From assembly GCF_035207705.1 (NCBI RefSeq), contig NZ_CP128187.1:4092001-4156000 (forward strand): DNA of 64,000 nt, in the 5' to 3' direction. The notes under the pieces were generated by a model. That model made no database searches. It was not told where the DNA came from and saw only the letters and a program-made list of their open reading frames with translations. Position numbers and translations under genes: made by a program. Below, piece by piece: positions 40,115 through 61,768 of the stretch (position 1 is its first letter; each line of letters begins with the position of its first letter). This stretch comes from Maribacter sp. BPC-D8. Lineage in GTDB: Bacteria > Bacteroidota > Bacteroidia > Flavobacteriales > Flavobacteriaceae.

Positions 40115-41461
40115 CTATTGAAATGTTAGGGTAAATGTTGTCTTTTCATTAGATACTACCCGAATTGACCCGCCGTGCAAACGCATTATCTGCTTGCTTA
40201 AGCTTAAACCGATTCCTGTTCCAGTATTTTTGGTTGTAAAAAACGGAACAAATATTTCATCTAACAACTCCGCAGAAACCCCAGGTCCGTTATCGGTAAC
40301 CGTAATATATTTTTTACCCTGCGCATCTTCTTCTGCTTTTATAATGATGCTACCCTCATCTTGTTCTTCTAAAGCCTGCTGGGCATTTTTTCCTAGGTTT
40401 AAAAGTATTTGGGTAAGCTGTTTTTCGTCAATATACAGTTCTAAGTCTTCAGGTTCAGATGATACTTCTAAGGTAATATTATGTCCGTTGGTATACTCCT
40501 GTAATAACAACCGTACTTTTTCTAAAATCTTGCTAGCTGGTATTAATTCTCGATCAGGTTCGGGTACACTTAAAAATGTTCGGTACGACTGTACAAAACT
40601 CATTAAATCATTGCCTTGTTCTTTGATAACCTCTAAACCTTTTGCAGAATTTTTTATCTGAAGTTCTCCGAATTCTTCGGGCGTAGAAAGCACATTACCT
40701 TTTTTAAAGTATTTTAAGATAGACTCAGATATAGAAGTAATCGGAGTAATGGTATTCATGATTTCATGGGTTAGAACACGTATTAATTTTGCCCAAGAAT
40801 CAGTTTCTTTATCATCTAATTCCTTTTGAATATCATGAACAATAACCAATAATAACTGCTTACCTTCAATAGTGATAGGCGTACACTTTAGCGTTAATAC
40901 TTTTTTACCCCGTTCATTACCTAAAGAATATAATGTGCTTTCGAAAGGCTCTAAAGATTCAAAAAGGCTATAGAGATTAGGGTCTATTTGTTTTAATTGC
41001 TTAACATGGTTAAGTGGTCGGTAGTTGAGCAAATCTTGCACCGTTGGGTTCGCGTATAAAATATGCCCCTTGTCATTAACGGTAAATATACCAATGTCTG
41101 CTTGCCTTAATATTTCTTGGTAATACTGCTCTTGGGCTTGTTTTTTTACATGAATATCTTGAATCATTCCATTCAGCATATTCAAGCTTTGGTTGAGTTC
41201 TTCAATAGATTTTACACTCAGTTTTTCAGGAAAACGTAAAGTGAAATCTTCATTTTTAATGGCGTCAAAGAAATAAGCAATTTTTCTATTGGTCTGGTTC
41301 ACGTAATGTATGAGTCCGTATGTCTGTCCTATAAAAACAAGACTTAAAATAACACTGAGCAGATAATGTTCTTTAAAAAACAGAAATGCAGTGAGTAGCG
41401 CACAAACGGCTATCAGAATAATTCTGAAAACAAGTTGGTAGTATATACTTTTGCTGACCAT
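40115..41461 (-). CDS. NtrY-like sensor histidine kinase of the export regulon
   Basis: The 448-residue protein has two N-terminal membrane helices (about residues 8-50) and a HAMP-like segment. A PAS domain follows near 110-210 (ILRQADIGIFTVNDKGHILYANPTVQDLL). The H-box is VLTHEIMNTITPITSISESI with H232, the HEIMN form seen in NtrY/NtrB-type kinases. The ATP-binding domain ends with DNGPGVS and GTGIGLSLSKQIMRLHGG. Its ATG overlaps the stop of the NtrC-type gene by one base (TAATG), so the pair is translationally coupled. It probably senses an envelope signal and drives the sigma-54-type promoters found at 43, 51.7 and 54.4 kb. Confidence 0.92.
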   Translation of the reverse strand: MVSKSIYYQLVFRIILIAVCALLTAFLFFKEHYLLSVILSLVFIGQTYGLIHYVNQTNRKIAYFFDAIKNEDFTLRFPEKLSVKSIEELNQSLNMLNGMIQDIHVKKQAQEQYYQEILRQADIGIFTVNDKGHILYANPTVQDLLNYRPLNHVKQLKQIDPNLYSLFESLEPFESTLYSLGNERGKKVLTLKCTPITIEGKQLLLVIVHDIQKELDDKETDSWAKLIRVLTHEIMNTITPITSISESILKYFKKGNVLSTPEEFGELQIKNSAKGLEVIKEQGNDLMSFVQSYRTFLSVPEPDRELIPASKILEKVRLLLQEYTNGHNITLEVSSEPEDLELYIDEKQLTQILLNLGKNAQQALEEQDEGSIIIKAEEDAQGKKYITVTDNGPGVSAELLDEIFVPFFTTKNTGTGIGLSLSKQIMRLHGGSIRVVSNEKTTFTLTFQ

Positions 41462-42825
41462 TATTTGCTCGATTTTTTAAGTTTATTGTAAAGCGTTTGT
41501 CTCGAAATACCCAATTGATCGGCAGCGGCACTGTAATTTCCTTCATGGTCGTTCAGCGCTTTATTGATCATTACCAGTTCCATTTCTTCCAGCGTTTTTG
41601 GTCCGCCTTCAATAGTTACCGTAGTTTTGGTGTCCAATAGAAAATCGGTAGGTTTTAATACATTTCCTTCAGAAAGGATAACGGCACGCTCCATGGTATG
41701 CAAAAGCTCTCTAACATTACCAGGCCACGGGTAGCTCATTAATTTCTCTTGTGCAGATTGATTGATTTTTAAACTAGGCTTGCCGTATTTATTGGCGAAT
41801 TTTTTCAAGAAGAAATCTGATAATACTAACACATCATTATCTCGATCTCGTAATGCAGGTACCTGTACTTGAATGGTATTTATTCGGTATAAAAGATCTT
41901 CACGAAACAAGCCGTCAGAAACCATTTGTTCTAAATTACCATTGGTAGCGCAAATTAATCTGATATCTACAGCAATAGGTTTATTGGATCCCACACGCAC
42001 AACAACCCTATTCTGAATAACAGATAGCAGCTTTGCTTGCATCTGTAAAGAAAGGTTACCGATTTCATCTAAGAAAAGTGTACCACCATTGGCGGCTTCA
42101 AATTTACCTGCGCGGTCATCTTTAGCATCTGTAAAGGATCCTTTTACATGACCAAAAAGTTCACTTTCAAATAAATTTTCAGAGATAGACCCCATATCCA
42201 CCGAAATAAAAACCTCATTATTTCTAGCTGAAGATTTGTGAAGTTCGCGAGCGATTAGTTCTTTGCCCGTTCCGTTTTCGCCAGTAACTAATATATTCAC
42301 ATCTGTTTTGGCAACTTTCTGTACGAGGTTTAAAACACTGTTCAATGCTTTAGAATTCCCGATAATGTAATTTGAATTCTGATTGATAACCTGCTTCAAA
42401 TTACTCTCTTTCTGTTTTAGGTGCTGTACCTCTTTCTGCGATTTTCTAAGCTCGTAGGCAGATTTTACTGTGGTTAATAGTCGCTCGTTGTTCCAGGGTT
42501 TGAGAACAAAATCGGTGGCACCTTCTTTTATAGCTTCAACCGCAAGTTCTACGGCACCATAAGCGGTCATCATAATCACAGAAATATGCGATGCCTTCTT
42601 TTTTATTTCTCGAAGCCAATATAATCCCTCATTACCGGTGTTTACTCCCGCAGAAAAATTCATATCTAATAGTATGATATCAATGTCTTTTAGGTTGGGG
42701 AAAGAGGTAAGTAAATTGGGATTAGAAATAGTCTGTACACTTTTATATTCAAACTGTAATAATATCTCTAAAGCGCTCAATACACTTTTGGTATCATCTA
42801 CAACAAGTATTTTAGCATCGATCAT
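41461..42825 (-). CDS. NtrC-family sigma-54-dependent response regulator
   Basis: The 454-residue activator has a receiver domain (acidic D10-D11, phospho-acceptor D54). An AAA+ domain follows with Walker A GENGTGKE near residue 180 and Walker B GGTLFLDEIGN. The C-terminal Fis-type HTH is NYSAAADQLGISRQTLYNKLKK. The sigma-54 contact loop GAFTGA reads GSFTDA at about residues 229-234. Such proteins bind enhancer palindromes about 100 bp upstream and open -24/-12 promoters. The nearest paired palindromes start 57 bp from its ATG, in front of the divergent tolC gene, and recur before two permease units. Confidence 0.94.
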   Translation of the reverse strand: MIDAKILVVDDTKSVLSALEILLQFEYKSVQTISNPNLLTSFPNLKDIDIILLDMNFSAGVNTGNEGLYWLREIKKKASHISVIMMTAYGAVELAVEAIKEGATDFVLKPWNNERLLTTVKSAYELRKSQKEVQHLKQKESNLKQVINQNSNYIIGNSKALNSVLNLVQKVAKTDVNILVTGENGTGKELIARELHKSSARNNEVFISVDMGSISENLFESELFGHVKGSFTDAKDDRAGKFEAANGGTLFLDEIGNLSLQMQAKLLSVIQNRVVVRVGSNKPIAVDIRLICATNGNLEQMVSDGLFREDLLYRINTIQVQVPALRDRDNDVLVLSDFFLKKFANKYGKPSLKINQSAQEKLMSYPWPGNVRELLHTMERAVILSEGNVLKPTDFLLDTKTTVTIEGGPKTLEEMELVMINKALNDHEGNYSAAADQLGISRQTLYNKLKKSSK

Positions 42826-42882
42826 GGTAAATTCTATTAACTCTTTTAAAACTACACATACAAGTTTGTATTTTCATGGTAC

Positions 42883-42921
42883 TGTAAAAATATTTGACAT
42901 TATCTGTACAACATTTTTACA
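42883..42921 (+). promoter_or_regulatory. Paired enhancer palindromes, copy A (before tolC)
   Basis: TGTAAAAATATTTGACA (42883-42899) and TGTACAACATTTTTACA (42905-42921) are 17-bp imperfect palindromes separated by exactly 5 bp. The same arrangement occurs at 51634-51672 and 54324-54362. The common pattern is TGTMMA-N5-TKKACA with centres 22 bp apart, two helical turns. The pair ends 63 bp before a TGGCAC promoter element. I infer that the NtrC-type activator encoded next door binds here. Confidence 0.8.
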
Positions 42922-42984
42922 CTGATAAATAAGTGGCGATTATTTTAATGTTGTAATCAGCTGTTAATCAATATTTTAAAATTA

Positions 42985-42999
42985 TGGCACGTATATAGT
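42985..42999 (+). promoter_or_regulatory. Sigma-54-like promoter, copy A (tolC operon)
   Basis: TGGCAC (42985-42990), 5 bp, then TAGT (42996-42999). The -24 half is the canonical TGGCAC. The -12 half has GT where GC is usual, keeping the GG-N10-G spacing. Predicted transcription start is near 43010, 16 nt before the ATG at 43026. Confidence 0.65.
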
Positions 43000-43025
43000 A
43001 TAGAGAATGGCATACCAATGAAGAA

Positions 43026-44372
43026 ATGAATCAAAAATTTAAAATAACGACACTTTTACTACTCTCTATTTGGGGGTCTATACTTGCTCAAGAAAGCTGG
43101 ACATTAGATGAATGTGTTTCTTATGCAATGGAGCATAACTTGCAGTTGAACGACTTTAAATATACCAACCAATCTAACAGAGAAACCTACAGACAATCGG
43201 TTCGTAATTTGTTGCCATCGGTAAATGCATCTTCAAGCTATCTTATTAATTATGGTAGAGCAGAAGATCCTAACACAGGTACATTCGTAAATCAAGATTT
43301 TTACTCGAATAACTACTCTTTAGAATCTTCGATTGATTTGTTTCAGGGGTTTCAGAAAATAAATTCAATAAAAGCCTCTAAGTTGTTATTTAAGGCAACA
43401 CAAGAAGAAGTATTACAGCAAAAGTATTTATTGGCATTTAGAGTCATGCAAGCCTTTTATGACATTCAATTTTTTGAAGGATTGGTAGAAATATCAAAAG
43501 AACAATTAACAGTATCACAATCGAACTATAGCTTAGTTGAGAAGCAGGTAGAATTAGGCTTGAAAGCAGGAGCAGATTTGTATGAAGCAGAATCTTTATT
43601 GTTGACCGATAAATTAAATGTTACTCAAAGCAAAAATCAATTGGCTTCGGCGAAGTTGACCTTAATTCAAGAAATGAATTTAGAGAACACTTCAGACATA
43701 ACGATCCAGAAAGACTTAGAAGAAATAGTATCAGAATTTAATAGTCAAGAAATGAAATCTGATTCTGTTTATACTGAAGCAAGGGAGTTTATACCAATGA
43801 TAAAAGCGCAGGAATTTAGAGCAGAAGCAGCTAAAAAACAAGTGGCGGTTTCTAGAGGTAGATTGTACCCATCACTATCATTCTTTGCAGGTATTGGAAC
43901 AGGATATTTCGAGACCTTTAGAGATACATTAGGGAATACATTACCATTTAGAGAGCAGTTTAGAGACAATACTTCACAATATTTAGGTATTAATTTAAAT
44001 GTGCCAATTAGTAATGGCTGGTCGGCTAGATCAAGGGTTAAACAATCTAAAATTGAAAAGTTACGCGCAGAGAATAATTTAAAGACACAAGAACAGGTGT
44101 TGTTTCAGGCTATTCAGAAATTAGTACAAGATTATAATTCATTACTGGTAGAGTTGGTGCAGAGCAATCAGAAAATGGACGCGCAGAATTTAGCGTTCAC
44201 CATTGCTCAAAAGCGATATGAAAAAGGATTGATAAATGCTTTAGAACTTTTTACCGCTAAGAATTTATATGCGAGTGCCCAAAATGAAAATTTACAAGTA
44301 AAATTAAGGTCAGAAATTAATAAGAGTACGTTAGATTTTTATAGAGGATTACCAGTATTCAATATTGATTAG
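43026..44372 (+). CDS. TolC-family outer-membrane efflux protein
   Basis: The 448-residue protein has a signal peptide ending ...WGSILAQ and two copies of the outer-membrane efflux (OEP) repeat. Long alpha-helical stretches show the family patterns (WTLDECVSYAMEHNLQL, LNVTQSKNQLASAKLTLIQEMNL, LAFTIAQKRYEKGLINALELFTAKNLYASAQ). It should form the trimeric exit duct for the ABC export system encoded downstream. It is the first gene behind the sigma-54-like promoter at 42985 and is the only TolC in the cluster, so all six permeases would have to share it. Confidence 0.93.
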   Translation: MNQKFKITTLLLLSIWGSILAQESWTLDECVSYAMEHNLQLNDFKYTNQSNRETYRQSVRNLLPSVNASSSYLINYGRAEDPNTGTFVNQDFYSNNYSLESSIDLFQGFQKINSIKASKLLFKATQEEVLQQKYLLAFRVMQAFYDIQFFEGLVEISKEQLTVSQSNYSLVEKQVELGLKAGADLYEAESLLLTDKLNVTQSKNQLASAKLTLIQEMNLENTSDITIQKDLEEIVSEFNSQEMKSDSVYTEAREFIPMIKAQEFRAEAAKKQVAVSRGRLYPSLSFFAGIGTGYFETFRDTLGNTLPFREQFRDNTSQYLGINLNVPISNGWSARSRVKQSKIEKLRAENNLKTQEQVLFQAIQKLVQDYNSLLVELVQSNQKMDAQNLAFTIAQKRYEKGLINALELFTAKNLYASAQNENLQVKLRSEINKSTLDFYRGLPVFNID

Positions 44373-44382
44373 AAGAAAAAAA

Positions 44383-44407
44383 CGTCTTTGCGAGGTACGA
44401 AGCAAAC
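44383..44407. repeat. REP-like intergenic sequence between tolC and hlyD
   Basis: The segment TTGCGAGGTACGAAGCAA (44388-44405) forms a short hairpin (TTGC/GCAA). From memory it resembles the widespread flavobacterial intergenic unit TTGCGAGGAACGAAGCAA. The 96-bp gap otherwise shows nothing. Confidence 0.5.
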
Positions 44408-44468
44408 TGCTGAACCTTTGACTAGATGCTAAAAAGAAATAAGATTTAATAAAGAACAAACGATTACC

Positions 44469-45719
44469 ATGGATATAAAATTAGAAAAGAAAAAAGGATT
44501 TAAGCCAAAACATTACGGCTACATCGCATTAAGTGTATTGCTACTATTTGTTGGGTATCAGCTATTGTTTGCCAGTTCTGTGTCTACATTTAGAACAGAA
44601 AAAGATAAGCTTTCGATTGCTGAGGTTTCTGCAGGTAAATTCGATGACTACATTACTATTAACGGTAGCGTAGCACCAATAGCCACCATTTATATGGATG
44701 CTTATGAAGGTGGTCGTGTAAGTGAGAAATTGATTGAAGAAGGTGCCATGGTGAAGAAAGGTGATATCATCTTGAAGCTTGAGAACATGAATTTGTACGA
44801 GCAGATTTTAGCAAGTGAAAGTAATTTGGCACTAAAGCAAAATGATTTAAGATCAACCAAAATGAGTTTCGATTCAAGACAGGTAGAAGGTAGAAGGTCA
44901 TTGGCAACAACGAGTACAGATTTGCAACGCTTGAAAAGAAATTATGAGCAAAATAAAGCGTTGTTCGATGATGAATTAATTTCAAGAGAAGCATTTCAAC
45001 TATCTAAAGAAAACTATGAATTATCTCAAAAACAACATGAAATTATCAAAGTGCAAACTGTGCAAGATGATGAGTTACGTGAGACATCATTGAAAGGGTT
45101 AGATACCGATTTGGCGCGTATGCAAAAAACTTTGGGTATGGTGTACCAAAGACTAGATCACTTAAATGTACGTGCCCCTGCAGATGGTCAATTAGGGTTT
45201 TTAGATGCCGAAATTGGGCAGAGTATTGCGCAAGGTCAGCGTATAGGTCAGATTAACGTACTTACAGACTATAAGATAGAAGCTGAAATCGATGAGCACT
45301 ATATAGACCGTGTAAAAAGAGATTTGGTAGCGGTTTTAGAACGTAACGGAACAGAATTTCCATTGCGATTACGAAAAGTATATCCTGAGGTTAGAAATGG
45401 TAGGTTTAAGGTTGATTTGGTTTTTACCGATAGTAAGCCAGAAACCATTCGTTCAGGTCAGAGCTATAATATTAAATTACAATTAGGGGAATCTAACGAC
45501 GCACTTTTATTACCAAAAGGAAGCTTTTTTCAAAGCACAGGCGGACAATGGATTTTTGTTGTGAATTCTGATGGAGGAGAAGCAATTAAGAGAAACATTA
45601 GAATAGGAAAACAGAATTCTAGATACTATGAGGTTTTAGAAGGCTTAGAACCTGGAGAAAAAGTAATTACAAGTAACTACGATAATTTCGGAGAAGCCGA
45701 GAGAATAGTATTAAAATAG
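44469..45719 (+). CDS. HlyD/MacA-family periplasmic adaptor
   Basis: The 416-residue protein has one membrane helix near residues 18-33 and a barrel-sandwich (lipoyl-like) part (GSVAPIATIYMDAYEGGRVSEKLIEEGAMVKKGDIILKLEN). A long coiled-coil hairpin spans about 110-210, the second lipoyl half LNVRAPADGQLGFLDAEIGQSI follows, and beta-barrel and membrane-proximal domains end the chain. It links inner-membrane permeases to TolC. It is the only adaptor in the cluster. Its last codons and stop form the first copy of an 18-bp direct repeat that flanks a palindromic element. Confidence 0.93.
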   Translation: MDIKLEKKKGFKPKHYGYIALSVLLLFVGYQLLFASSVSTFRTEKDKLSIAEVSAGKFDDYITINGSVAPIATIYMDAYEGGRVSEKLIEEGAMVKKGDIILKLENMNLYEQILASESNLALKQNDLRSTKMSFDSRQVEGRRSLATTSTDLQRLKRNYEQNKALFDDELISREAFQLSKENYELSQKQHEIIKVQTVQDDELRETSLKGLDTDLARMQKTLGMVYQRLDHLNVRAPADGQLGFLDAEIGQSIAQGQRIGQINVLTDYKIEAEIDEHYIDRVKRDLVAVLERNGTEFPLRLRKVYPEVRNGRFKVDLVFTDSKPETIRSGQSYNIKLQLGESNDALLLPKGSFFQSTGGQWIFVVNSDGGEAIKRNIRIGKQNSRYYEVLEGLEPGEKVITSNYDNFGEAERIVLK

Positions 45720-45810
45720 CTTCGGCTTCGCTCAGCTACCTATAAAGTTCAGTTTCGAACCCTGAGCGTAGCCGAAGGGTGAAAAGGACTAAAGAATAGT
45801 ATTAAAATAG
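45702..45810. repeat. Palindromic element flanked by an 18-bp direct repeat
   Basis: AGAATAGTATTAAAATAG occurs at 45702-45719 (the end of hlyD, including its TAG) and again at 45793-45810. The 73 bp between the copies contain an inverted repeat: CTTCGGCTTCGCTCAG at 45720-45735 with CTGAGCGTAGCCGAAG at 45762-45777, 15 of 16 paired. The arrangement looks like insertion of a REP-type hairpin with duplication of its target, or a local duplication. Confidence 0.75.
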
Positions 45811-45871
45811 AAAATCAACTGTCACATCTGAGAATTCTCGGTGTCATTATAACAATCAAAATAGCAGGAAT

Positions 45872-46567
45872 ATGATAACCATTACGAACCTTAAAAAAAG
45901 TTTTAGAACAGAAGAAGTAGAAACCTTGGCATTGAATAGTGTCAACCTAAAAGTAGAAGACGGCGAGTTTGTGGCTATTATGGGTCCGTCTGGTTGTGGT
46001 AAATCTACGTTATTGAACATTATTGGAATGTTAGATAACCCAACAGATGGCAGCTACAATTTTGCAGGTAATGAAGTAGGCGGATTAAAAGAGAGTCAGC
46101 GTACACAATTACGTAAAGGAAATTTAGGTTTCGTTTTTCAAAGCTTTAATCTTATCGATGAGTTAACGGTGTTTGAAAATGTAGAGCTCCCATTAATCTA
46201 TTTAAAGATGGGTAAGGCAGAACGAAAAGAAAAGGTAATGAAGGTGTTAGAGCGAATGAAAATTGCACATAGAGAAAAGCATTTTCCGCAGCAATTATCT
46301 GGTGGTCAGCAACAACGTGTGGCAATATCGAGAGCGGTAGTAACTAACCCGAAATTAATATTAGCTGATGAGCCAACAGGTAACTTAGATTCTAAAAACG
46401 GAATCGAAGTAATGAACCTATTAACAGAACTAAACCAAGAGGGAACCACAATTGTCATGGTAACGCACTCAGACAGAGATTCGCATTATGCGCATAGAAT
46501 TGTAAATCTATTCGATGGTCAAATCGTTACTGAAAGCCAGAACCGAGCGATCGGTGCTATGATGTAA
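45872..46567 (+). CDS. MacB/LolD-type ABC transporter ATPase
   Basis: The 231-residue protein has Walker A GPSGCGKST at residues 38-46, the signature LSGGQQQRVAISRA near 139-152 and Walker B LILADEPTGNLDSKNG near 160-175. The LDNPTDGSYNFAGNEV insert and the lack of a membrane part place it with LolD/MacB/FtsE-type ATPases that drive FtsX-like permeases. It lies between hlyD and the first permease and presumably powers permeases 1 and 2 and perhaps others. Confidence 0.95.
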   Translation: MITITNLKKSFRTEEVETLALNSVNLKVEDGEFVAIMGPSGCGKSTLLNIIGMLDNPTDGSYNFAGNEVGGLKESQRTQLRKGNLGFVFQSFNLIDELTVFENVELPLIYLKMGKAERKEKVMKVLERMKIAHREKHFPQQLSGGQQQRVAISRAVVTNPKLILADEPTGNLDSKNGIEVMNLLTELNQEGTTIVMVTHSDRDSHYAHRIVNLFDGQIVTESQNRAIGAMM

Positions 46568-46576
46568 TCCCCCATG

Positions 46577-46747
46577 CCCCCGAAGGGGGTTTTAAAAAAG
46601 AGTTTATTTATCAATCAATTTTCAATTTCGTTCACAAATCGGAGTCGAAGACAAATCAACCGAAAACCAAACCTATCCCTTAATCACGGATAATAGAGTA
46701 TCATCAATCAATCAATCACCAAACCATTCCCCCTCCTTCGGAGGGGG
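46577..46747. repeat. Two G/C-rich hairpins in the gap before permease 1
   Basis: CCCCC-GAA-GGGGG (46577-46589) follows the ATPase stop. CCCCCTCC with GGAGGGGG (46729-46747, TTC loop) precedes the permease ATG and is trailed by CTAGGGGGAGGA. The 205-bp gap between them shows no gene; it has a TCATCAATCAATCAATCA stretch at 46701-46718. Such hairpins could pause transcription or protect the mRNA. Confidence 0.6.
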
Positions 46748-46773
46748 CTAGGGGGAGGAAAAATCAAAAAATC

Positions 46774-49191
46774 ATGTTTAGAAACCATCTTAAAATTGCT
46801 TGGAGAAGTTTAAAGAAAGACAAGCTCTTTGCCGCTATAAAAATTGGCGGTTTCGCTGTTGGTATAGCAGCATGTCTTTTAATAGCATTGTTCATTCGTA
46901 ATGAGGTGGGTTATGATCAACACTACGCCAATAAGGATCAAATGTACCGTGTAGTGTTGGAGGGTATGTATAAAGGAGAGGTAATGAAAAGTACACACTT
47001 TCAGTTACCTTTTGCAGATGCCTTGCAAAGTGATTTCCCTGAAATTATAAAAGCAGCAAAAGTTAATACAACAGGAATATTTGGAGCCGGTAAACGTGGT
47101 ATTAGATTAGCTGGTGAGAAGCAAAATAACCTAGAAGACGGATTTTTACTTGCAGACCAAGAAGCATTTGAGATTTTAGAAGTTCAGCTCGAACAAGGTA
47201 ATGCAAGCACGGCATTGGCAAATCCGAAAAGCATTGTTATCTCAGAATCTAAAGCAGCAAAATATTTTAAAGACGGTACGATTATAGGCGAAACAATCAT
47301 TTTAGACAATGATCCTACAAAGCCATATACCGTAACTGGTGTCATGAAAGATGCGCCTAAAAACTCGCATTTAACATACGATTTTTTAATTCCCATTGAA
47401 GATACCAATGCAAGTTGGACCAACCAAAACTACTTCACTTATATTCTAGTAGATCCAAATACAAATGTTCAGCAACTAGAGAAAAAAATGGTTTCTATTG
47501 TTGAAGATTACATCATTCCCGCGCAAAGAGAACGAGGTCGTGCTCCAGACTTTATTGATGTGCTAAGAACCATGGAGTATAAGCTTCAGCCTATCACAGA
47601 TATTCATTTGTATTCAGACATTAAAATGGCAGATGGTCTAAAGCATGGCGATATCAGATTCGTTTGGCTTTTTGCGGCTATTGCCGGTTTCGTATTACTG
47701 TTAGCAGTGATCAATTTTATAAACCTTTCTACTGCAAAATCAGCAAATAGAGCAAAAGAAGTAGGACTTAGAAAAACTATTGGTGCTTATAAAAGCAATT
47801 TGGTGGTTCAGTTCATGACCGAATCAATAATGTTCAGTTTTGTCTCTTTTATTTTAGGGGTTTTATTGGCTTGGGCATTATTACCATCATTCAATTCTAT
47901 TGCATCAAAAACAATTGAAATGCCTTGGGCAGCATGGTGGTTCATTCCAATTATATTAGTTGCTGCGCTGTTGGTAGGTTCTTTGGCAGGGCTTTATCCT
48001 GCATTTTATTTATCAGCATTTAAACCGGTTAATGTTTTAAAAGGAAGTTTAAGCATTGGTAGTAAAAGTGGAAAATTAAGAAGCGGACTCGTTATTTTTC
48101 AATTTTCTACATCTGTAATTCTGATTATAGCCACGTTGATTATTTACCAACAAATGGATTTTATACTTCAGAAAGAATTGGGATATGATAAAGAACAAGT
48201 GGTGATACTAGAGGGAACAGGAGTTTTAGGAAATAGCGCAGAGAATTTTAAAGAACAATTACTACAATTACCACAAGTAAAATCGGCAACGATATCTAAT
48301 TATTTACCAGTAGATGGTGGCAGTAGAAACGGAAATACCTTTAGAAGAGAAGATGAAGGTAATGAAGGTAGAGGCATACCTGCTCAAATTTGGCGAGTAG
48401 ATTATGACTACATAAAAACATTGGGTATTACTCTAAAAACAGGTAGAGATTTCTCTAAGCAGTTTGCTTCAGACTCTTTGAATTCCATCATTATAAATGC
48501 TAATATGGAAAGAGAGCTTGGCTTGGATAATGCAATTGGTAAAGAGATTAATAACAACGGACAACTATTTACGGTTATAGGGGTGGTTGATGATTTTCAT
48601 TTTAAATCTCTAAAAGAAGATATTTCTTCATTGTCATTGGTAATTGGTAAAGATTTAGGGTCCATATCACTGAAGTTAGAAAAAGGAAATGTGAATCAGG
48701 CATTGGCATCTATCGCATCGGTATGGAATAAAAACATTCCCAATCAGTCTATAAATTATAGCTTTTTAGATCAAGAGTTTAGTCGTATGCATGACGATGT
48801 AGGGCGTATGGGTAAGATATTCAACAGCTTTGCACTGTTCGCCATATTGGTGGCATGTTTAGGGTTGTTTGCACTCTCTGCCTTTATGGTAGAACAACGT
48901 AAAAAAGAGATAAGCATTAGGCTGGTTTTAGGCGCACCATTTAAAAGTATATACCGACTACTAACGTTAGATTTTATGAAGCTTATTTTGGTATCCATCA
49001 TTATTGCAATACCAATTGGTTGGTACATTATGAGCCGTTGGCTAGAAGATTTCGCCTATCATATCACCATCGGTTGGGGCATATTTCTAGCTGCAGGTTT
49101 AATAGCATTAACCATTGCAATACTGACCATAAGTTACCAATCTGTTGGTGCAGCATTAATACAACCTTTGAAAAGCCTTAGAAAAGAATAA
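46774..49191 (+). CDS. Double-FtsX (MacB-like) ABC permease 1
   Basis: The 805-residue protein has two copies of the MacB layout. A membrane helix (about 20-41) and periplasmic MacB_PCD-like domain (about 45-270) lead to three helices with GLRKTIGAYKSNLVVQFMTES. A second membrane helix (about 430-450) and periplasmic domain lead to three more helices with LGLFALSAFMVEQRKKEISIRLVLGAPFKSIY. With eight helices each protein can form a complete pseudo-dimer. MacB-like permeases do not conduct; they move substrates from the periplasm through TolC by mechanotransmission. The end is QPLKSLRKE, slightly different from the NPVKSLRTE of its paralogues. Confidence 0.93.
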   Translation: MFRNHLKIAWRSLKKDKLFAAIKIGGFAVGIAACLLIALFIRNEVGYDQHYANKDQMYRVVLEGMYKGEVMKSTHFQLPFADALQSDFPEIIKAAKVNTTGIFGAGKRGIRLAGEKQNNLEDGFLLADQEAFEILEVQLEQGNASTALANPKSIVISESKAAKYFKDGTIIGETIILDNDPTKPYTVTGVMKDAPKNSHLTYDFLIPIEDTNASWTNQNYFTYILVDPNTNVQQLEKKMVSIVEDYIIPAQRERGRAPDFIDVLRTMEYKLQPITDIHLYSDIKMADGLKHGDIRFVWLFAAIAGFVLLLAVINFINLSTAKSANRAKEVGLRKTIGAYKSNLVVQFMTESIMFSFVSFILGVLLAWALLPSFNSIASKTIEMPWAAWWFIPIILVAALLVGSLAGLYPAFYLSAFKPVNVLKGSLSIGSKSGKLRSGLVIFQFSTSVILIIATLIIYQQMDFILQKELGYDKEQVVILEGTGVLGNSAENFKEQLLQLPQVKSATISNYLPVDGGSRNGNTFRREDEGNEGRGIPAQIWRVDYDYIKTLGITLKTGRDFSKQFASDSLNSIIINANMERELGLDNAIGKEINNNGQLFTVIGVVDDFHFKSLKEDISSLSLVIGKDLGSISLKLEKGNVNQALASIASVWNKNIPNQSINYSFLDQEFSRMHDDVGRMGKIFNSFALFAILVACLGLFALSAFMVEQRKKEISIRLVLGAPFKSIYRLLTLDFMKLILVSIIIAIPIGWYIMSRWLEDFAYHITIGWGIFLAAGLIALTIAILTISYQSVGAALIQPLKSLRKE

Positions 49192-49206
49192 ATATCCCAT
49201 CCCCAG

Positions 49207-49225
49207 CCCTTCCCGAAGGGAAGGG
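49207..49225. repeat. Perfect hairpin between permeases 1 and 2
   Basis: CCCTTCCC-GAA-GGGAAGGG, 8-bp perfect stem, lies in the 51-bp gap just before the permease 2 ATG. No T-run follows, so it is not an obvious terminator. Confidence 0.65.
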
Positions 49226-49242
49226 AAGAAAAAACGAGAACT

Positions 49243-51591
49243 ATGTTTAAGAACTATATAAAAATCGCTTGGCGAAATCTTTGGAAGAATAAAGGCTATA
49301 GCCTATTGAATATTTTTGGTCTGGCAATAGGGATAACCTGTGCCGCTATGATTTTACTTTGGGTAGAAGATGAGGTAGGTTATGATAAAGATTTTGCAAA
49401 ACAAGATGTGGTGTATTACATACCTACCAACCAACAATACGATGGCGAATGGAGAACATTTTTTCAAGCTACTCCGGGGCCGTTAGCAGAAGTTTTAAAG
49501 CAAGAAGTTCCAGGAATTGTAGGAGCTGCAAGAACAAAAAGTGATGATTTTTTGTTTCAGGTAGATGATACTTCTATTAATAAAAACGGACGATATGCTG
49601 ACCCAGATTTTTTAAGCATGTTCAGTCTAACTTTTGTAGAAGGCAATTTAGAAACAGCTTTTAATGATGTAGATGCTATTATTATTTCACAAGAAACGGC
49701 TACCCAATTATTCGGAGAAAACACTTCAGCCATTAATAAAGTGGTGAAAATAAATAACGAAACTAATTATACTGTCTCTGGTGTTTATGAAGATTTGCCA
49801 AACAATGTCACCTATACTTTTGATTGGTTGGCGCCATTTGAGCGTTTTGCAGAAGGTAAAGAGTGGATGAAAGATTACGGCTCTAATTTCTCAGACACAT
49901 TTGTAGAACTTTCGCCAGAAGCAAATTTTGAAGTAGTTAATCAAAAGGTGAAGGCAATACTGCCTATGAAGACCGAAGATGATGAAACTGTTGCATTTTT
50001 ATTTTCTATGAAAGATTGGCATTTACGGTCAGCTTTTGAAGGAGGAAAGAATGTAGGTGGGCAAATTACTTATGTAAGACTGTTCAGCCTTATTGCAATA
50101 ATCATATTATTAATAGCCTGTATTAACTTCATGAACTTGGCTACCGCCAGAAGTGAAAAAAGAGCTAATGAAGTCGGAGTCCGCAAAGTATTGGGATCTG
50201 GTAGAAAAGGATTGATATCTCAATTTATGGCAGAGGCAATAATAACTGCAGCATTATCTGCGGTATTAAGTGTGCTGTTATTGAAATTATTGGTGCCGCA
50301 ATTCAATATGATTATCGACAAACAGCTAGAGTTAAGTTTATTTAACCCCACACATATTTTAACCTTAGTTGGCATTACCCTGGTTTGTGGTATTGTTGCG
50401 GGTTGGTATCCGGCATTTTATTTGTCTTCTTTTAAACCTATAGATGTGTTGAAGGGAGCACGAAAAACAAAAGGGAGCGCATCATTTATTAGAAAAGGGC
50501 TAGTGGCTACTCAGTTTGTAGTTTCTATAGTATTCATCATAAGTACTATAATCGTGTATCAACAAGTACAACATGTAAAAGGGCGCGATTTAGGGTATGA
50601 TAAAGAAAATCTGGTTAAAATTCCTGTAACAGGAGGTATCATAAAAAACTTCAAACCTCTTGAAGAAGATATGAAATCTTCAGGTATGATAGAAAGCATC
50701 GGTCTCAATAATTCAGATATTTTATCCGGTGGTAATAATACATCTAATTTAGAATGGCAAGGTGGTATTGATACCGAAAATGTGCTGGTATCTATTAGAA
50801 GTATTACATCAGATTTCTTTAATACCGCTGGGATGGAGATTGTAGAAGGTAGAGGATTTAGTAACAACCCTGTTCAAGACAGTACCAATATTATTGTAAG
50901 TGAATCTTTTGCAAAATTGATGGGTAGTGGCAGTGCTATAGGCAAAACAGTAGAAGGTGATTACCCAGTAATTGGCGTAGTAAAAGATTATTTATACGAT
51001 GACATGTATGGATCTAGTGATCCGGTTATATTTTTTAATAACCCTAGTGATGCAAGTTTTCTCTATGTAAAGACAAAAAAGGGTATAGCAACAGCATCGG
51101 CTTTGACAGCTATGGAAACATCGTTGAAAAAGTTCAATCCCGCATTTCCTTTTGAATATGAATTTGTAGATGATACCTATAATGCCAAGTTTAAAAGTGA
51201 AAAATTAATCGGGAACCTTTCTCAAATTTTTGCGCTACTAGCTATATTAATTTCTTGTTTAGGACTCTTCGGATTATCAGCCTTTACCGCAGATCAGCGT
51301 AGAAAAGAAATAGGAGTTCGTAAAGTTTTAGGGTCAAGCATATCGAGTATTGTAGGCTTGTTGTCAAAAGATTTTATGCAATTGGTAGTAATCGCAATTT
51401 TAATTGCTAGTCCGCTTGCATGGCTATTAATGCACAATTGGTTAGAAGGTTATTCGTACCGTATTTCTATAGATATATGGGCTTTTGTAATTGCAGGTGT
51501 TGTCGCTATTGTTATAGCGTTAGTAACGATAAGCTTTCAAGCTTTAAAAGCAGCTAGAGCGAATCCGGTTAAAAGTTTACGTACAGAGTAA
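49243..51591 (+). CDS. Double-FtsX (MacB-like) ABC permease 2
   Basis: The 782-residue paralogue has the same eight-helix, two-periplasmic-domain layout. It begins MFKNYIKIAWRNLWKNKGYSLLN, the cytoplasmic amphipathic stretch that precedes helix 1 in all six copies. FtsX-domain blocks are GVRKVLGSGRKGLISQFMAEA and LGLFGLSAFTADQRRKEIGVRKVLGSSISSIVGLLSKDF. The C-terminus is NPVKSLRTE. It is the last gene of transcription unit A; 223 bp follow before permease 3, holding a new paired-palindrome promoter. Confidence 0.93.
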   Translation: MFKNYIKIAWRNLWKNKGYSLLNIFGLAIGITCAAMILLWVEDEVGYDKDFAKQDVVYYIPTNQQYDGEWRTFFQATPGPLAEVLKQEVPGIVGAARTKSDDFLFQVDDTSINKNGRYADPDFLSMFSLTFVEGNLETAFNDVDAIIISQETATQLFGENTSAINKVVKINNETNYTVSGVYEDLPNNVTYTFDWLAPFERFAEGKEWMKDYGSNFSDTFVELSPEANFEVVNQKVKAILPMKTEDDETVAFLFSMKDWHLRSAFEGGKNVGGQITYVRLFSLIAIIILLIACINFMNLATARSEKRANEVGVRKVLGSGRKGLISQFMAEAIITAALSAVLSVLLLKLLVPQFNMIIDKQLELSLFNPTHILTLVGITLVCGIVAGWYPAFYLSSFKPIDVLKGARKTKGSASFIRKGLVATQFVVSIVFIISTIIVYQQVQHVKGRDLGYDKENLVKIPVTGGIIKNFKPLEEDMKSSGMIESIGLNNSDILSGGNNTSNLEWQGGIDTENVLVSIRSITSDFFNTAGMEIVEGRGFSNNPVQDSTNIIVSESFAKLMGSGSAIGKTVEGDYPVIGVVKDYLYDDMYGSSDPVIFFNNPSDASFLYVKTKKGIATASALTAMETSLKKFNPAFPFEYEFVDDTYNAKFKSEKLIGNLSQIFALLAILISCLGLFGLSAFTADQRRKEIGVRKVLGSSISSIVGLLSKDFMQLVVIAILIASPLAWLLMHNWLEGYSYRISIDIWAFVIAGVVAIVIALVTISFQALKAARANPVKSLRTE

Positions 51592-51633
51592 GGGCATTAA
51601 TTATGATAACAAGACTTATTATCAGAATTCTAC

Positions 51634-51672
51634 TGTAAATATATTTTACAAATTTTGTCCAAATATTTGACA
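51634..51672 (+). promoter_or_regulatory. Paired enhancer palindromes, copy B (before permease 3)
   Basis: TGTAAATATATTTTACA (51634-51650, TGTAAA-N5-TTTACA is perfect) and TGTCCAAATATTTGACA (51656-51672) are separated by 5 bp. The pair ends 53 bp before TGGCAT at 51726, compared with 63 bp in copy A, a difference of one helical turn. Confidence 0.8.
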
Positions 51673-51725
51673 GTTAAGATATTAGATTTTATTTTAAACA
51701 ACTATAGATCAGCACATTAAACTAA

Positions 51726-51740
51726 TGGCATGAAATTAGA
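51726..51740 (+). promoter_or_regulatory. Sigma-54-like promoter, copy B (permease 3)
   Basis: TGGCAT (51726-51731), 5 bp, TAGA (51737-51740). GG-N10-G spacing is kept; the -24 half ends in T and the -12 half has GA. It is the weakest of the three copies. Predicted start is near 51751 with a 64-nt leader to the ATG at 51815. Confidence 0.55.
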
Positions 51741-51814
51741 CTTCTTATTTTTTGTTGTCAATCACCATCATCAAATCTCGCTAAGCAAAGTCTAAGCATC
51801 AAAAAACGAAAATC

Positions 51815-54247
51815 ATGTTTAAAAATTATCTAAAAATTGCCTGGAGAAGTTTAAAGAAGCAAGCCTTTTTTACTTTCTTAAATACATTTGGACTAGCCAT
51901 TGGTATGGCTGGGGCATTGATTATATCGTTATATATCTACGACGAGCTTAGTTATGATAAAATGTTTACCGATGTAGATAGGATTTATCGTATAGATGCA
52001 GATATAAAATTTGGTGGAGCTGAAATGAAGGCAGGTGAAGCTGCCGCACCAATGGCAGAAACCTTAAAAAGAGATTATCCGCAAGTAGAATCAACTGTTC
52101 GTCTTAGAACTATAGGTAGTGCGTATGTGAAAAAAGAAGGAGGAAACAGAAGTGCCAAAGAAAGCCATATAGCCTTTGCCGATTCTACAATGTTCGATTT
52201 TTTCGGAATAGAGTTGCTCGCAGGTAACGCTAAAACGGCATTGACCGGCACCAACTCGTTAGTCTTGACCAAAAGTGCAGCAGAGAAACATTTTGGGGAT
52301 ACAGATGTTATTGGTCAAAATTTACTGTTGGACAATACCGATACTTATACGGTAACCGGAGTGATTGAAGACATGCCCCAAAATTCCTATTTCAATGACT
52401 ATAGTGTGTTTTTGGCTATGGCGGGCAATGTGGCATCTAGGGAAGATAATTGGGGTGGTAATAATTATTTTACGTTTGTAAAATTAATACCTGAAGCCAA
52501 TGCAGAAGATTTTCAAAAGCCTTTGCAAGACATGTTAGAAAGGTATATGTTACCATGGTCACAAAAGTATTTTCCGGGTATGACGGCAGAGTCGTTTGCG
52601 GCATCTGGTAATTATATTAGGTATCATACCATGCCATTGACCGATATTCATTTGTATTCTGATAGAGATACGGAAATGAATGCAACAAGTAGTATTCAAA
52701 ATATTTACATTTTATCATTTATTGGATTGTTTTTGATCATTTTGGCAAGTGTAAACTTTATGAACTTGTCTACGGCACATTCTTTAAAGAGAGCCAAAGA
52801 AGTTGGAGTTAGAAAGACTTTGGGTTCCAATAGAATGAATCTGGTTTTTCAGTTTTTAACAGAATCAGGTTTAATAGCATTTGTGTCTTTGTTAGCGGCA
52901 CTAATAATTTCAATGATAGCATTACCATTTTTCAATAGCTTCACGGGCAAATCAATTGTTATTCCGTTTACTCAGCCCTTATTTTGGTTGGCGTTATTTG
53001 GGGCAACCTTTTTACTAGGATTATTTTCAGGCAGTTACCCTGCATTTTTCATGTCAAGATTTACTGCCGTTAAAAGCTTAAAAGGTGGTAGTACAGAAAG
53101 TGTAGGTAATGGTAGGGTGCGTAATGCCTTGGTCATATTTCAATTTTCAATTTCGGTATTTCTCATCGTAAGCACTTTGGTAGTTTTTCAACAATTAAAT
53201 TATATACAGAACAAAGATTTGGGCTTTTCCAAAGATCGGGTGCTGTTAATTAACGAAATAGGGGCGCTAGGATCAAAGACCAAAGCTTTTAAAGAACAAA
53301 TTGCTAACATGGCTTTTGTGGAAAGCGCTACGTTAAGCGATTACTATCCAACACCATCTTGGAGGTCAAATACCTCGTTCTTTGAAGAAGGTGCAAGAGA
53401 TCAAGAATTTGCCATTCAAATGCAAGAATGGAAGGTAGATTCAGATTACTTAAAAGCTATGGAAATGGAGATAGTTGCTGGGCGAGATTTTAATCCGAAA
53501 TATGTATCAGATTCTACGGCTATCATTATAAATGAAGCTACGTTGCCTATTATGAATGTCACCGCAGAAGAAGCTTTGGGTATGCGTATATCAGAAGAAA
53601 TTGAACTCGAAAACCCTACCTACTATACTATCATCGGTGTAGTTAAAGACTTTCATTTTACATCTTTGCGTAATAATATAGAGGCACTAGGTATACAACT
53701 TAAATCTGATGCCGAAAATATGGCGGTTAGAATGAGCGGTGGAAACTTTGTAAATAATATTTCAGCAATAGAAAGTACATGGAACGCCATTGCACCCGGT
53801 CAACCATTTGATTATCGCTTTATGGACGAAGCTTTCAATACCACCTATGAAGCGGAACAAAAACTGAGTAAGATATTTTTCATTTTTACTATGCTGTCCA
53901 TTTTTATTGCTTGTTTGGGATTATTTGGATTAGCTGCCTTTAATGCCGAAAAACGAACAAAAGAAATCGGTGTTAGAAAAGTGTTGGGAGCTACTGTAAG
54001 TCAAATTTCTTACCGACTTACAGTAGATTTTCTAAAACTGGTCGGTGTAGCAATATTAGTGTCATTGCCATTAGGTTGGTATGTTATGAATAAATGGCTC
54101 GAAGATTTTTCATACCGAATAGAAATAGGATTTGGCATTTTCGCCCTTGCAGGACTACTTGCAATTATAGTGGCTATTGTAACGGTTAGTTATCAAAGTA
54201 TAAAAGCGGCGGTTGTAAACCCCGTTAAGAGTTTACGTTCAGAATAA
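51815..54247 (+). CDS. Double-FtsX (MacB-like) ABC permease 3, own transcription unit
   Basis: The 810-residue paralogue (MFKNYLKIAWRSLKKQAFFTFLN) has the eight-helix layout with GVRKTLGSNRMNLVFQFLTES and GLAAFNAEKRTKEIGVRKVLGATVSQISYRLTVDF. Its periplasmic domain 1 shares FFGIELLAGNAKTALTGTNSLVLT with the same region of permease 1. It ends NPVKSLRSE. It is flanked on both sides by paired-palindrome promoters, so it is probably transcribed alone or with read-through into permease 4. No ATPase is in its unit. Confidence 0.92.
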   Translation: MFKNYLKIAWRSLKKQAFFTFLNTFGLAIGMAGALIISLYIYDELSYDKMFTDVDRIYRIDADIKFGGAEMKAGEAAAPMAETLKRDYPQVESTVRLRTIGSAYVKKEGGNRSAKESHIAFADSTMFDFFGIELLAGNAKTALTGTNSLVLTKSAAEKHFGDTDVIGQNLLLDNTDTYTVTGVIEDMPQNSYFNDYSVFLAMAGNVASREDNWGGNNYFTFVKLIPEANAEDFQKPLQDMLERYMLPWSQKYFPGMTAESFAASGNYIRYHTMPLTDIHLYSDRDTEMNATSSIQNIYILSFIGLFLIILASVNFMNLSTAHSLKRAKEVGVRKTLGSNRMNLVFQFLTESGLIAFVSLLAALIISMIALPFFNSFTGKSIVIPFTQPLFWLALFGATFLLGLFSGSYPAFFMSRFTAVKSLKGGSTESVGNGRVRNALVIFQFSISVFLIVSTLVVFQQLNYIQNKDLGFSKDRVLLINEIGALGSKTKAFKEQIANMAFVESATLSDYYPTPSWRSNTSFFEEGARDQEFAIQMQEWKVDSDYLKAMEMEIVAGRDFNPKYVSDSTAIIINEATLPIMNVTAEEALGMRISEEIELENPTYYTIIGVVKDFHFTSLRNNIEALGIQLKSDAENMAVRMSGGNFVNNISAIESTWNAIAPGQPFDYRFMDEAFNTTYEAEQKLSKIFFIFTMLSIFIACLGLFGLAAFNAEKRTKEIGVRKVLGATVSQISYRLTVDFLKLVGVAILVSLPLGWYVMNKWLEDFSYRIEIGFGIFALAGLLAIIVAIVTVSYQSIKAAVVNPVKSLRSE

Positions 54248-54323
54248 CCGTGCTATAGATTGCACCCATTCTTATAAAGATGATACAGGGATTAATGTAA
54301 CGATCCGTTTTTCAAATAGTCTT

Positions 54324-54362
54324 TGTAAATATATTGTACATGTTTTGTCAAAAAATTTGACA
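54324..54362 (+). promoter_or_regulatory. Paired enhancer palindromes, copy C (before permease 4)
   Basis: TGTAAATATATTGTACA (54324-54340) and TGTCAAAAAATTTGACA (54346-54362, TGTCAAA-N3-TTTGACA is perfect) are separated by 5 bp. The pair ends 52 bp before TGGCAC at 54415, almost identical to copy B. Confidence 0.8.
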
Positions 54363-54414
54363 CTTAAATATTCTATAGTATCATAAATAACTAATATTCA
54401 ATAGGTTAATAGTG

Positions 54415-54429
54415 TGGCACGGATTTAGT
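54415..54429 (+). promoter_or_regulatory. Sigma-54-like promoter, copy C (permeases 4-6 and ATPase 2)
   Basis: TGGCAC (54415-54420), 5 bp, TAGT (54426-54429), the same -24 and -12 halves as copy A. The predicted start near 54440 falls on the upstream GTG, which supports the ATG at 54467 as the true start of permease 4. Confidence 0.65.
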
Positions 54430-54466
54430 CTTAGATTTAGTGTCATCAATCAAAAAACGCGCAATC

Positions 54467-56851
54467 ATGCTAAAAAACCACCTAAAGTTATCTATTCGAA
54501 ACCTCTGGAAAAACAGATTGCTCTCCTCATTAAATCTACTAGGCTTAAGTATCGGTATTGGTAGTGTGTTGACATTGTTATTTTCAGTGTATGCATATTA
54601 TGTAGCAGATGCTAATATTCCTAATCAAGAAAATATAGTGTATTTAAAAACGCACTTAACAGATGGCAATAGCTACAATGAAGTTACCTACCCTTTGTTA
54701 GATAAAATTCTAAGCACTTCACCTGAGATAAAAGCAGGTACACACATGCATGGCTGGGGCAATATTTGGTTAGAGAGCGATAATAAAGAATTTCAAAAGA
54801 CAACGACGTATGCGGATCCAGAATTTTTCGAGGTATTCGGGTTGCCTTTAAAATATGGAAATCAGAGTGATGCCTTAAAAGAGAAATATTCTATTGTTTT
54901 AACTGATAAGGTGAGTAAACAATTATTCGGAGAAGAGAACCCCGTTGGTAAAAACTTAATAGCTGCAGATACTTTAAATCTCACCATTACTGGGGTTTTA
55001 GAACCTATTAGTCCGTACTCATCATTTAGGCTAGGGGTATTGTTACCGAATACGATTTTAGAAGATAATCCGATATTTATCAGACAAACAAATTGGGACA
55101 ACAGTTTTTCGCCCATATTCTTAAAGCTAGATGAAAAGGCAGATGCATTGCAATTCGAAAAGAAAGTAAATCAACTAGTAGTAGAAAATTATGCCGATCC
55201 TAGAACCATTTCAAGAATTGAATTGATGCCATATAAGGAGATGCGAATGGATACCGTTCCCGTTGCTAAAATTATAATTAACGGAAATATCGCGGCAGCT
55301 TTTTTTGTACTGCTTATTGTGCTAGTTAATTTGTTGAACTTGAATACTTCTACCATGTTTCGTCGCACAAAAGACATAGCGGTCAGAAAAATATTAGGAG
55401 GAACTAAAAAAGGAGTGATAGTACAGTTCTGTCTTGAAAATGGAATATTGGTTTTATTGTCAGTTTTAATCTCTGGCGGACTCTTTCTTGGTATTTTATT
55501 GCCGAAGATGAATGCTGTTTTCGGGGCAGATTTTGGTGAGATTAGTTTCAGTTTTGTAGATGATTATCCAGTCATTATAGGAGCTGTAGTATTGGGTTTA
55601 GTTGTTACTTTAATAGTAGGTATTTTGCCTACGTTGAGGTTTATATCTTTACCCATTTCAAAAGGGATTAAAGGAAAAATAGATGCCGCAAAGGGCAATT
55701 TCCTATTTCGAAATTCTTTTGTCATTTTGCAATTTACCATCGCTATACTTTTTATCTGTGTTGCCATTATTCTCAATAGTCAGATCGGGTTTATGAAAAG
55801 TGCAGATTTAGGTTTTGATAGGGAAAATGTTATCGCAGCGAACATAGATCTGGATTATAAAAATATAGATGCAGCGAACTCTAGCTTTAATGCGTTGTTA
55901 GATGAGTTAAAAGCCAATCCATTTGTAGAAAGTGTTAGCACTAGCCAAGCTGTACCTTCAGATTATTATTTTAACTACAGTACGTTTTATGACCCAAATA
56001 CCGATGTAGATGTTCGTATACGTCGCTCATATGTAGATGATGGTTATCTAAAAACTTTGAAGATACCGATGGCTATGGGTCGAGATTTTGATAACATTTT
56101 AGATACAGAAGAAAGTAAATCGGTTATCATTAATCGTAGTGCTATGAGAGCATTTGGCTGGTCATCAATAGAAGGCAAACGGTTAGAATATAGAGGTGAT
56201 GATTCTGATGGTTTTGCGATTGTAGGTGTTATGGAAGATTTTAATTATCAAGATTTACAAAACTCGGTAGAGCCTTTAGTGCATTATTACAATAATGAAA
56301 AAGATTTGGCACATCATCGGTATTTATCTGTTCGGGTAATGGAGGGGAACGAAAAAGAAATTCAGAATTTAATGAATACTGCTTTTTCTAAAATAAGTTC
56401 TCGTAAAAGTTTCTCGCAAGAATTTATAAGTGAAAAAGTAAGTGGTCAATATAGGTTAATAGACGGCATGTTAAAGACGGTAAATGTGGTTGCAATGATG
56501 ACCATTTTCATATCATGTTTAGGCATGTTCGGTCTTATCTCATTTATGGCGAAAAGAAGAATCAAAGAAATAGGTATACGAAAAGTATTAGGTGCTGGTG
56601 TGCTTAAAATAGTAGTGTTACTGTCTAAAGATTATATTTTGTTAGTAGGTATAGGAGCGTTAATCGCCTTCCCTATTGCATGGTTTGTAATGAATGCATG
56701 GCTGGGCAGTTTCGCTTACAGTATTGCTATACAATGGTGGATGTTTGTTTTGGCAGGATTAATTGCCTTTTTAATAACAGCATTCACATTAGGCATACAA
56801 GCGGTAAAATCAGCAATGGTAAACCCAGTGAAGAGTTTAAGAACAGAATAA
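54467..56851 (+). CDS. Double-FtsX (MacB-like) ABC permease 4
   Basis: The 794-residue paralogue starts MLKNHLKLSIRNLWKNRLLSSLN. The frame extends nine codons up to a GTG at 54440, but that codon is at the predicted transcription start. FtsX blocks are AVRKILGGTKKGVIVQFCLEN and GLISFMAKRRIKEIGIRKVLGAGVLKIVVLLSKDY. It diverges most in the first periplasmic domain, which lacks the EVGYD-type motif after helix 1 found in several paralogues and instead reads YYVADANIPN. It ends NPVKSLRTE. It is first in unit C. Confidence 0.92.
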   Translation: MLKNHLKLSIRNLWKNRLLSSLNLLGLSIGIGSVLTLLFSVYAYYVADANIPNQENIVYLKTHLTDGNSYNEVTYPLLDKILSTSPEIKAGTHMHGWGNIWLESDNKEFQKTTTYADPEFFEVFGLPLKYGNQSDALKEKYSIVLTDKVSKQLFGEENPVGKNLIAADTLNLTITGVLEPISPYSSFRLGVLLPNTILEDNPIFIRQTNWDNSFSPIFLKLDEKADALQFEKKVNQLVVENYADPRTISRIELMPYKEMRMDTVPVAKIIINGNIAAAFFVLLIVLVNLLNLNTSTMFRRTKDIAVRKILGGTKKGVIVQFCLENGILVLLSVLISGGLFLGILLPKMNAVFGADFGEISFSFVDDYPVIIGAVVLGLVVTLIVGILPTLRFISLPISKGIKGKIDAAKGNFLFRNSFVILQFTIAILFICVAIILNSQIGFMKSADLGFDRENVIAANIDLDYKNIDAANSSFNALLDELKANPFVESVSTSQAVPSDYYFNYSTFYDPNTDVDVRIRRSYVDDGYLKTLKIPMAMGRDFDNILDTEESKSVIINRSAMRAFGWSSIEGKRLEYRGDDSDGFAIVGVMEDFNYQDLQNSVEPLVHYYNNEKDLAHHRYLSVRVMEGNEKEIQNLMNTAFSKISSRKSFSQEFISEKVSGQYRLIDGMLKTVNVVAMMTIFISCLGMFGLISFMAKRRIKEIGIRKVLGAGVLKIVVLLSKDYILLVGIGALIAFPIAWFVMNAWLGSFAYSIAIQWWMFVLAGLIAFLITAFTLGIQAVKSAMVNPVKSLRTE

Positions 56852-56890
56852 CAAGTATATCATCAGTCAATCAATAAAAAATAAATAATC

Positions 56891-59251: not shown

Positions 59252-59284
59252 TTTAAAATTCATCAATCAATTTAAAATCAAATC

Positions 59285-61702: not shown

Positions 61703-61768
61703 TAATCAAGACATTTAACCAACAACCAACAACCACTATTTCACTAACAAACTAATTCACTAAATAAG

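Follow-up and report, generated by a model that had tools for sequence, protein, structure and literature searches.

Gene organization and features of the locus

The DNA analysed here (the window) was a stretch of 64,000 nt from Maribacter sp. BPC-D8 (GCF_035207705.1, NZ_CP128187.1, positions 4,092,001-4,156,000 of the forward strand), whose genome comprises 4,783,464 bases. Features are listed by window position, strand and identity, with the evidence in parentheses.

40115-41461, minus: sensor histidine kinase (Pfam PAS and HATPase_c; hydropathy)
41461-42825, minus: NtrC-type response regulator (Pfam receiver, sigma-54 activation AAA+ and Fis-type HTH; GSFTDA loop)
42847-42854, minus: TAGTTTTA, -7 box of a housekeeping promoter presumed for the regulator gene (conserved TAnnTTT)
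42883-42921: putative enhancer of unit 1, 17-bp palindromes at 42883-42899 and 42905-42921 (exact pattern, conservation)
42966-42978, plus: IHF-like site of unit 1, AATCAATATTTTA, exact to WATCARN4TTR, 6 bp before TGGCAC (sequence; conserved offset)
42985-42999, plus: sigma-54-type -24/-12 element of unit 1, TGGCACGTATATAGT (exact match, conservation)
43008-43013, plus: another TGGCAY-type motif, TGGCAT, 23 bp downstream of the -24 one and close to the predicted transcription start (same offset in relatives)
43026-44372, plus: TolC-type outer membrane protein, unit 1 (Pfam OEP)
44469-45719, plus: HlyD-type adaptor, unit 1 (Pfam HlyD_3, NCBIfam RND_mfp)
45872-46567, plus: ABC ATPase, unit 1 (Pfam ABC_tran)
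46774-49191, plus: FtsX/MacB permease, unit 1 (Pfam)
49243-51591, plus: FtsX/MacB permease, unit 1 (Pfam)
51634-51672: putative enhancer of unit 2 (exact pattern)
51707-51719, plus: IHF-like site of unit 2, GATCAGCACATTA, one mismatch (sequence, fixed offset)
51726-51740, plus: -24/-12 element of unit 2, TGGCATGAAATTAGA (exact match)
51815-54247, plus: FtsX/MacB permease, unit 2 (Pfam)
54324-54362: putative enhancer of unit 3 (exact pattern)
54396-54408, plus: IHF-like site of unit 3, ATTCAATAGGTTA, one mismatch (sequence, fixed offset)
54415-54429, plus: -24/-12 element of unit 3, TGGCACGGATTTAGT (exact match)
54467-56851, plus: FtsX/MacB permease, unit 3 (Pfam, sequence)
56891-59251, plus: FtsX/MacB permease, unit 3 (Pfam)
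59285-61702, plus: FtsX/MacB permease, unit 3 (Pfam)
61769-62434, plus: second ABC ATPase, unit 3, the tenth gene (ORF, Pfam ABC_tran)

The IHF-like sites were named from WATCARN4TTR, which we take to be the IHF consensus, and TAnnTTT was read as a -7 box from what we take to be the Bacteroidota -7 consensus. The ten genes in three units of the initial annotation were recovered: unit 1 has five ORFs (43026-51591), unit 2 has one (51815-54247) and unit 3 has four (54467-62434). Strand and spacing were used to set the presumed limits of the units, and within unit 1 further promoters could be hidden in gaps of 152 and 206 bp. For the first permease of unit 3, the ATG at 54467 fits the predicted transcription start better than the GTG at 54440. 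All parts of a MacAB-TolC-like tripartite ABC exporter (TolC, HlyD-type adaptor, ABC ATPase and MacB/FtsX permease) were identified using Pfam. One adaptor, one TolC and two ATPases are accompanied by six full-length FtsX/MacB permeases (46774-61702) in this single cluster.

The regulator scored above the cut-offs for PF00072, PF00158 and PF02954 (receiver, sigma-54 AAA+ and Fis-type HTH domains, respectively). Its loop reads GSFTDA rather than GAFTGA and is unlike the loops of the other four clear activators in the genome. Among the best 80 of 583 loci with regulator relatives (L006-L085), GSFTDA accounted for 49 and GAFTDA for 29 of 78 motif matches. A sigma-54 DNA-binding domain was found in one gene of the genome, and HU/IHF-family genes numbered two. 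Hydropathy analysis of the kinase revealed two hydrophobic stretches with almost no loop between them; because hardly any loop is present, sensing within the membrane is suggested.

Paired palindromes and their conservation

TGTMMA-N5-TKKACA pairs separated by 5 bp were located by a window scan allowing up to three mismatches, and the three pairs of the initial annotation were the only places recovered, with 0 mismatches each. The 39-bp double-palindrome pattern had no match in 100 dinucleotide shuffles of the window, so occurrence at chance frequency is not supported. The three pairs were the only exact matches in the whole genome, and the reversed control gave none. At up to three mismatches two more places appeared (two and three mismatches), which is noise level, the reversed control also giving two. 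When the search for the pair with its promoter element (the composite) was extended from the genome to its relatives, the composite was found at orthologous clusters.

TGGCAYN5TAGW occurred exactly three times in the window (42985, 51726 and 54415), each time downstream of a pair and at the gaps reported initially (63, 53 and 52 bp). With one mismatch allowed, the element alone was not enriched in the window (18 matches against 12.2 expected; 11 of 100 shuffles reached 18), and position after the pair is therefore what counts. The canonical TGGCAYN5TTGCW was uninformative in this genome: it matched 11 times, 3 of them outside long open frames, and its reversed control matched 3 times.

Conservation was examined at the best 80 loci mentioned above, the first 68 of which (L006-L073) ranged from 94% to 52% identity and were mostly from Flavobacteriaceae. 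The pair-to-element gap was left free (40-89) in the first locus scan, in which 65 loci were positive. A pair with a TGGCAY-like element 62-64 bp away was present in 66 of the 67 testable neighbourhoods among L006-L073. These included the Bacteroidales locus L068 (exact pair, TGGCAT at 63 bp) and L049, where the composite has a 63-bp gap and a 6-bp instead of 5-bp inner spacer. At L037 the regulator was present with neither pair nor promoter beside it; L011, at a contig edge, was left out. In 66 rows (65 loci plus the window) the gap was 63 bp in 50, 62 in 15 and 64 in one. Without exception the second palindrome began with TGT and ended with AC, and GG was invariant, although these unit-1 promoters are orthologous and near-identical at some loci, so that the counts are not independent. 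This pair was absent from the 12 more distant loci (L074-L085).

Of 149 family genomes, 19 carry the regulator (E <= 1e-150); the strict composite was detected in 15 of these 19 and in none of the 130 regulator-free genomes (Fisher p 2.7e-17). The exact narrow pair was present in 11 of the 149. In three regulator-bearing genomes (G001, G044 and G080) the composite departed from the strict pattern by one or two letters, with gaps of 63, 64 and 63 bp, respectively; in G037, likewise regulator-bearing and without a strict match, the contig ends. Two composite rows (G075 266942 and G018 C1 231967, minus strand) were dropped as already-counted pairs read in the other direction. A class-wide search, in a sample with few family members, was positive for 3 of 395 genomes, and the match in G522 was chance-like. 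Co-occurrence in the family sample does not distinguish the regulator from the other members of its cluster.

A pair-only search (up to three mismatches) of 12 of the 19 regulator-bearing genomes returned 45 distinct places, of which 7 were chance-like and 38 regulon-like (12 at unit 1 and 26 elsewhere, some on other contigs). Among the chance-like pairs, L201 and L202 lay within long open frames and L203 had a poor match to the promoter; the other four (two in G032, one each in G011 and G108) were set aside without their surroundings having been fetched. The first genes after the 26 elsewhere pairs encoded 21 FtsX/MacB permeases, 2 ABC ATPases and 3 others, namely a DUF2807 protein, a 73-residue HTH-like ORF and a lipoprotein with GldB/DUF2268 matches. 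G018 carried 14 pairs, so that the regulon is spread over that genome, while in the window's species it does not extend beyond the cluster.

DUF2807 proteins stand first after two enhancers (L157 9257-9859 and L050 3-641), and a secreted DUF2807 protein may belong to the regulon. The lipoprotein (L157 1988-3013, in G018) lies downstream of a pair with an AGGTAT-type promoter. The HTH-like open frame begins about 147 bp after the pair at L192, where the composite is perfect; it is perhaps a second layer of regulation.

Promoter elements, spacing and distant relatives

A set of 27 promoters away from the regulator was compiled from 25 of the 26 elsewhere sites together with units 2 and 3 of the window. 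GG at -24 was present in all 66 unit-1 sites, a set biased toward invariance by its limit of one promoter mismatch, and in all 27 of the others. The G of T-N-G was found in 66/66 and 26/27, respectively, and the canonical C after it in only 16/66 and 2/27. The -12 element is thus relaxed, with its G kept and its C mostly lost. TAGW, proposed initially as the -12 element, holds in the window; across orthologues T-N-G is what is kept, and TAGW is one version of it. Joint evolution of the relaxed -12 box and the loop aspartate was considered and rejected, since L081, L084 and L085 combine GAFTDA with an exact TGGCAYN5TTGCW. The GSFTDA loop does not explain the relaxed box, because relatives with canonical promoters have GAFTDA.

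The spacing difference of one helical turn noted initially was borne out by the Flavobacteriaceae sites, whose gaps lay at 52/53 and 61-65 bp. Among the 27 promoters the gap was 61-64 in 23 and 52-53 in 4. In a scan of offsets 45-79 on the gene side, the best promoter match fell at 61-64 in all 12 loci kept as regulon members (of 15), with 0-2 mismatches. The 52/53 class among flavobacterial sites was limited to the window, the same-genus genome G075 and the Maribacter loci L006 and L009. The two gap classes fit a difference of one helical turn, and two helical phases are kept, as expected for looping. A gap of 74 at G018:C2:628759 was rejected as a third helical class, as TGGCA there is not followed by T-N-G; this site has an AGGTAT-type element about 63 bp after the pair and was left out of the set of 27.

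An IHF-like match (up to two mismatches) 6 bp before TGGCAY was found in 23 of the 27 promoters, compared with 2.6% of shuffled spacers. Without a fixed position the reverse complement of the motif matched equally often, and only the fixed offset is therefore telling. A conserved TAA-N4-YTGATWWTCAR-N3-TTTA at 42950-42985, before TGGCAY, is longer than IHF would need and partly palindromic. At 43 of 84 sites, some entered twice from one organism, a second TGGCAY followed exactly 23 bp after the -24 element, in most cases lacking a -12 partner. On the regulator side, 58 of 66 rows had TAnnTTT at a distance of 28 bp from the pair, and this is likely the housekeeping promoter of the regulator gene.

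That box, which extends to TAnnTTTR, and the degenerate GC at -12 would suit a different reading, in which TGGCAY is not a sigma-54 promoter at all, the genes are served by housekeeping (-33/-7) promoters, and a repressor or a classical activator uses the palindromes as its operators. We regard this as improbable in view of the invariant GG, the near-invariant G of T-N-G, the sigma-54 activation domain carried by the regulator, and an enhancer-promoter gap that holds to two helical phases.

The 12 distant loci came from KSB1, Aminicenantes, a deltaproteobacterium, Cyclobacteriaceae and Bacteroidales. A sigma-54-like element (0-2 mismatches to TGGCAYN5TTGCW) was present in 9 of the 12, the promoter candidates having been picked by eye. 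In 8 of these 9, tandem palindromes of 16-17 bp and of other sequence lay upstream, at 21-23 bp start to start, and beat at least 295 of 300 shuffles; L078 was the one that did not. Five loci had an HlyD gene next (at a distance of 671 bp in L081) and two a permease gene, the next gene being unassigned in L077 and L078. Gaps (n=8) were 52, 53, 53, 54, 54, 66, 74 and 93 bp, largely though not wholly in helical-turn steps. On these sequences, the plan looks older than the Flavobacteriaceae.

These relatives, with their own tandem palindromes near exporter genes, bear on the proposal that another DNA-binding protein of the same neighbourhood binds the palindromes while the adjacent regulator acts elsewhere. 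Co-occurrence with the whole cluster, not with the regulator alone, is compatible with such a protein. It is nevertheless a very slight prospect, given that the regulator is the sole transcription regulator among the cluster proteins scanned and that every family-sample genome with a composite outside the cluster also bears the regulator. Hardly any weight attaches to the view that the pair mainly controls the regulator's own gene through the presumed -7 box, with secondary effects on the exporter, for although that 28-bp distance is fixed in most rows, pairs away from the regulator hold the same distance to TGGCAY, and autoregulation is in any case compatible with sigma-54 control of the exporter genes.

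A probable sigma-54 exporter regulon and its relation to known systems

We consider it very probable that the tripartite exporters form a dedicated sigma-54 regulon under an NtrC-type activator of a two-component system. The initial annotation had read the locus as an NtrC-type regulator acting on -24/-12 promoters, a reading that the sequences support; the refutation tests that could be computed (random occurrence and missing conservation) did not refute it. The sequences themselves show the architecture, its conservation, its presence alongside the regulator and the kind of gene it precedes; we infer protein binding, a requirement for sigma-54, DNA looping, phosphorylation, the nature of the signal and the exported substrate.

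The paired palindromes would serve as the enhancer of the adjacent response regulator, which when phosphorylated would bind as two dimers whose centres lie two helical turns (22 bp) from each other. Bending at the IHF-like site would allow the AAA+ ring to meet sigma-54 RNA polymerase at TGGCAY-N5-TNG, and ATP hydrolysis would open the promoter. From the three promoters, all ten genes (those for the TolC, the HlyD adaptor, both ABC ATPases and the six FtsX/MacB permeases) would be turned on jointly. The signal would reach them through the neighbouring kinase and is probably envelope disturbance. This textbook route for sigma-54 activators is proposed because of the regulator domains, the sigma-54 gene, the in-phase paired sites and the bend-like site.

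More tentatively, and with the odds rather against it, the enhancer could be the membership tag of a modular exporter. Numerous interchangeable orphan FtsX permeases, scattered over the genome in some species, would share a TolC-HlyD-ATPase core, and the near-loopless kinase would read the state of these permeases or of the membrane and set their joint level via sigma-54.

The locus offers an unusually clean, clearly sequence-defined candidate sigma-54 regulon in Bacteroidota, with a search key that finds most targets without prior gene knowledge. Through it, a set of FtsX permeases about which little is understood would be linked to a single signal and a single exporter core.

No earlier description of this enhancer was found in searches of open-access papers. 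A 2025 survey (PMC12316311) reports sigma-54 control of COG0577 FtsX permeases as enriched in Bacteroidia, gamma-Proteobacteria and Opitutia; in its accessible portion no enhancer or activator is assigned to this link, and only activators with the GAFTGA motif are described as retained. As given there, that filter would drop the GSFTDA regulator. The Desulfovibrio vulgaris sigma-54 regulome (PMC4641369) includes dedicated activators for transport operons and counts GAFTDA among loop variants expected to keep activity; it concerns another phylum, and the sections available contain nothing on this regulator. The available part of PMC3162934 holds nothing on Bacteroidota or on these exporters, and PMC10434189 is unrelated. 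The regulon would escape surveys that insist on TTGC in the -12 box or on an unaltered GAFTGA in the loop.

NtrC-type activators bind paired upstream palindromes and act on -24/-12 promoters. In the NtrC/glnA and NifA/nifH systems, upstream palindromes, an AAA+ activator and a -24/-12 promoter are combined, with an IHF-type bend in the nif case. The present system differs in its palindrome sequence, its relaxed -12 element, its FtsX/MacB exporter targets and its occurrence in Bacteroidota. In BceRS-BceAB-type systems, the kinase accompanying the FtsX-family permeases crosses the membrane twice and has scarcely any loop. The window kinase likewise has two spans with hardly any loop and lies near FtsX-family permeases, whereas its partner response regulator is of the NtrC type and the exporter includes TolC and HlyD parts.
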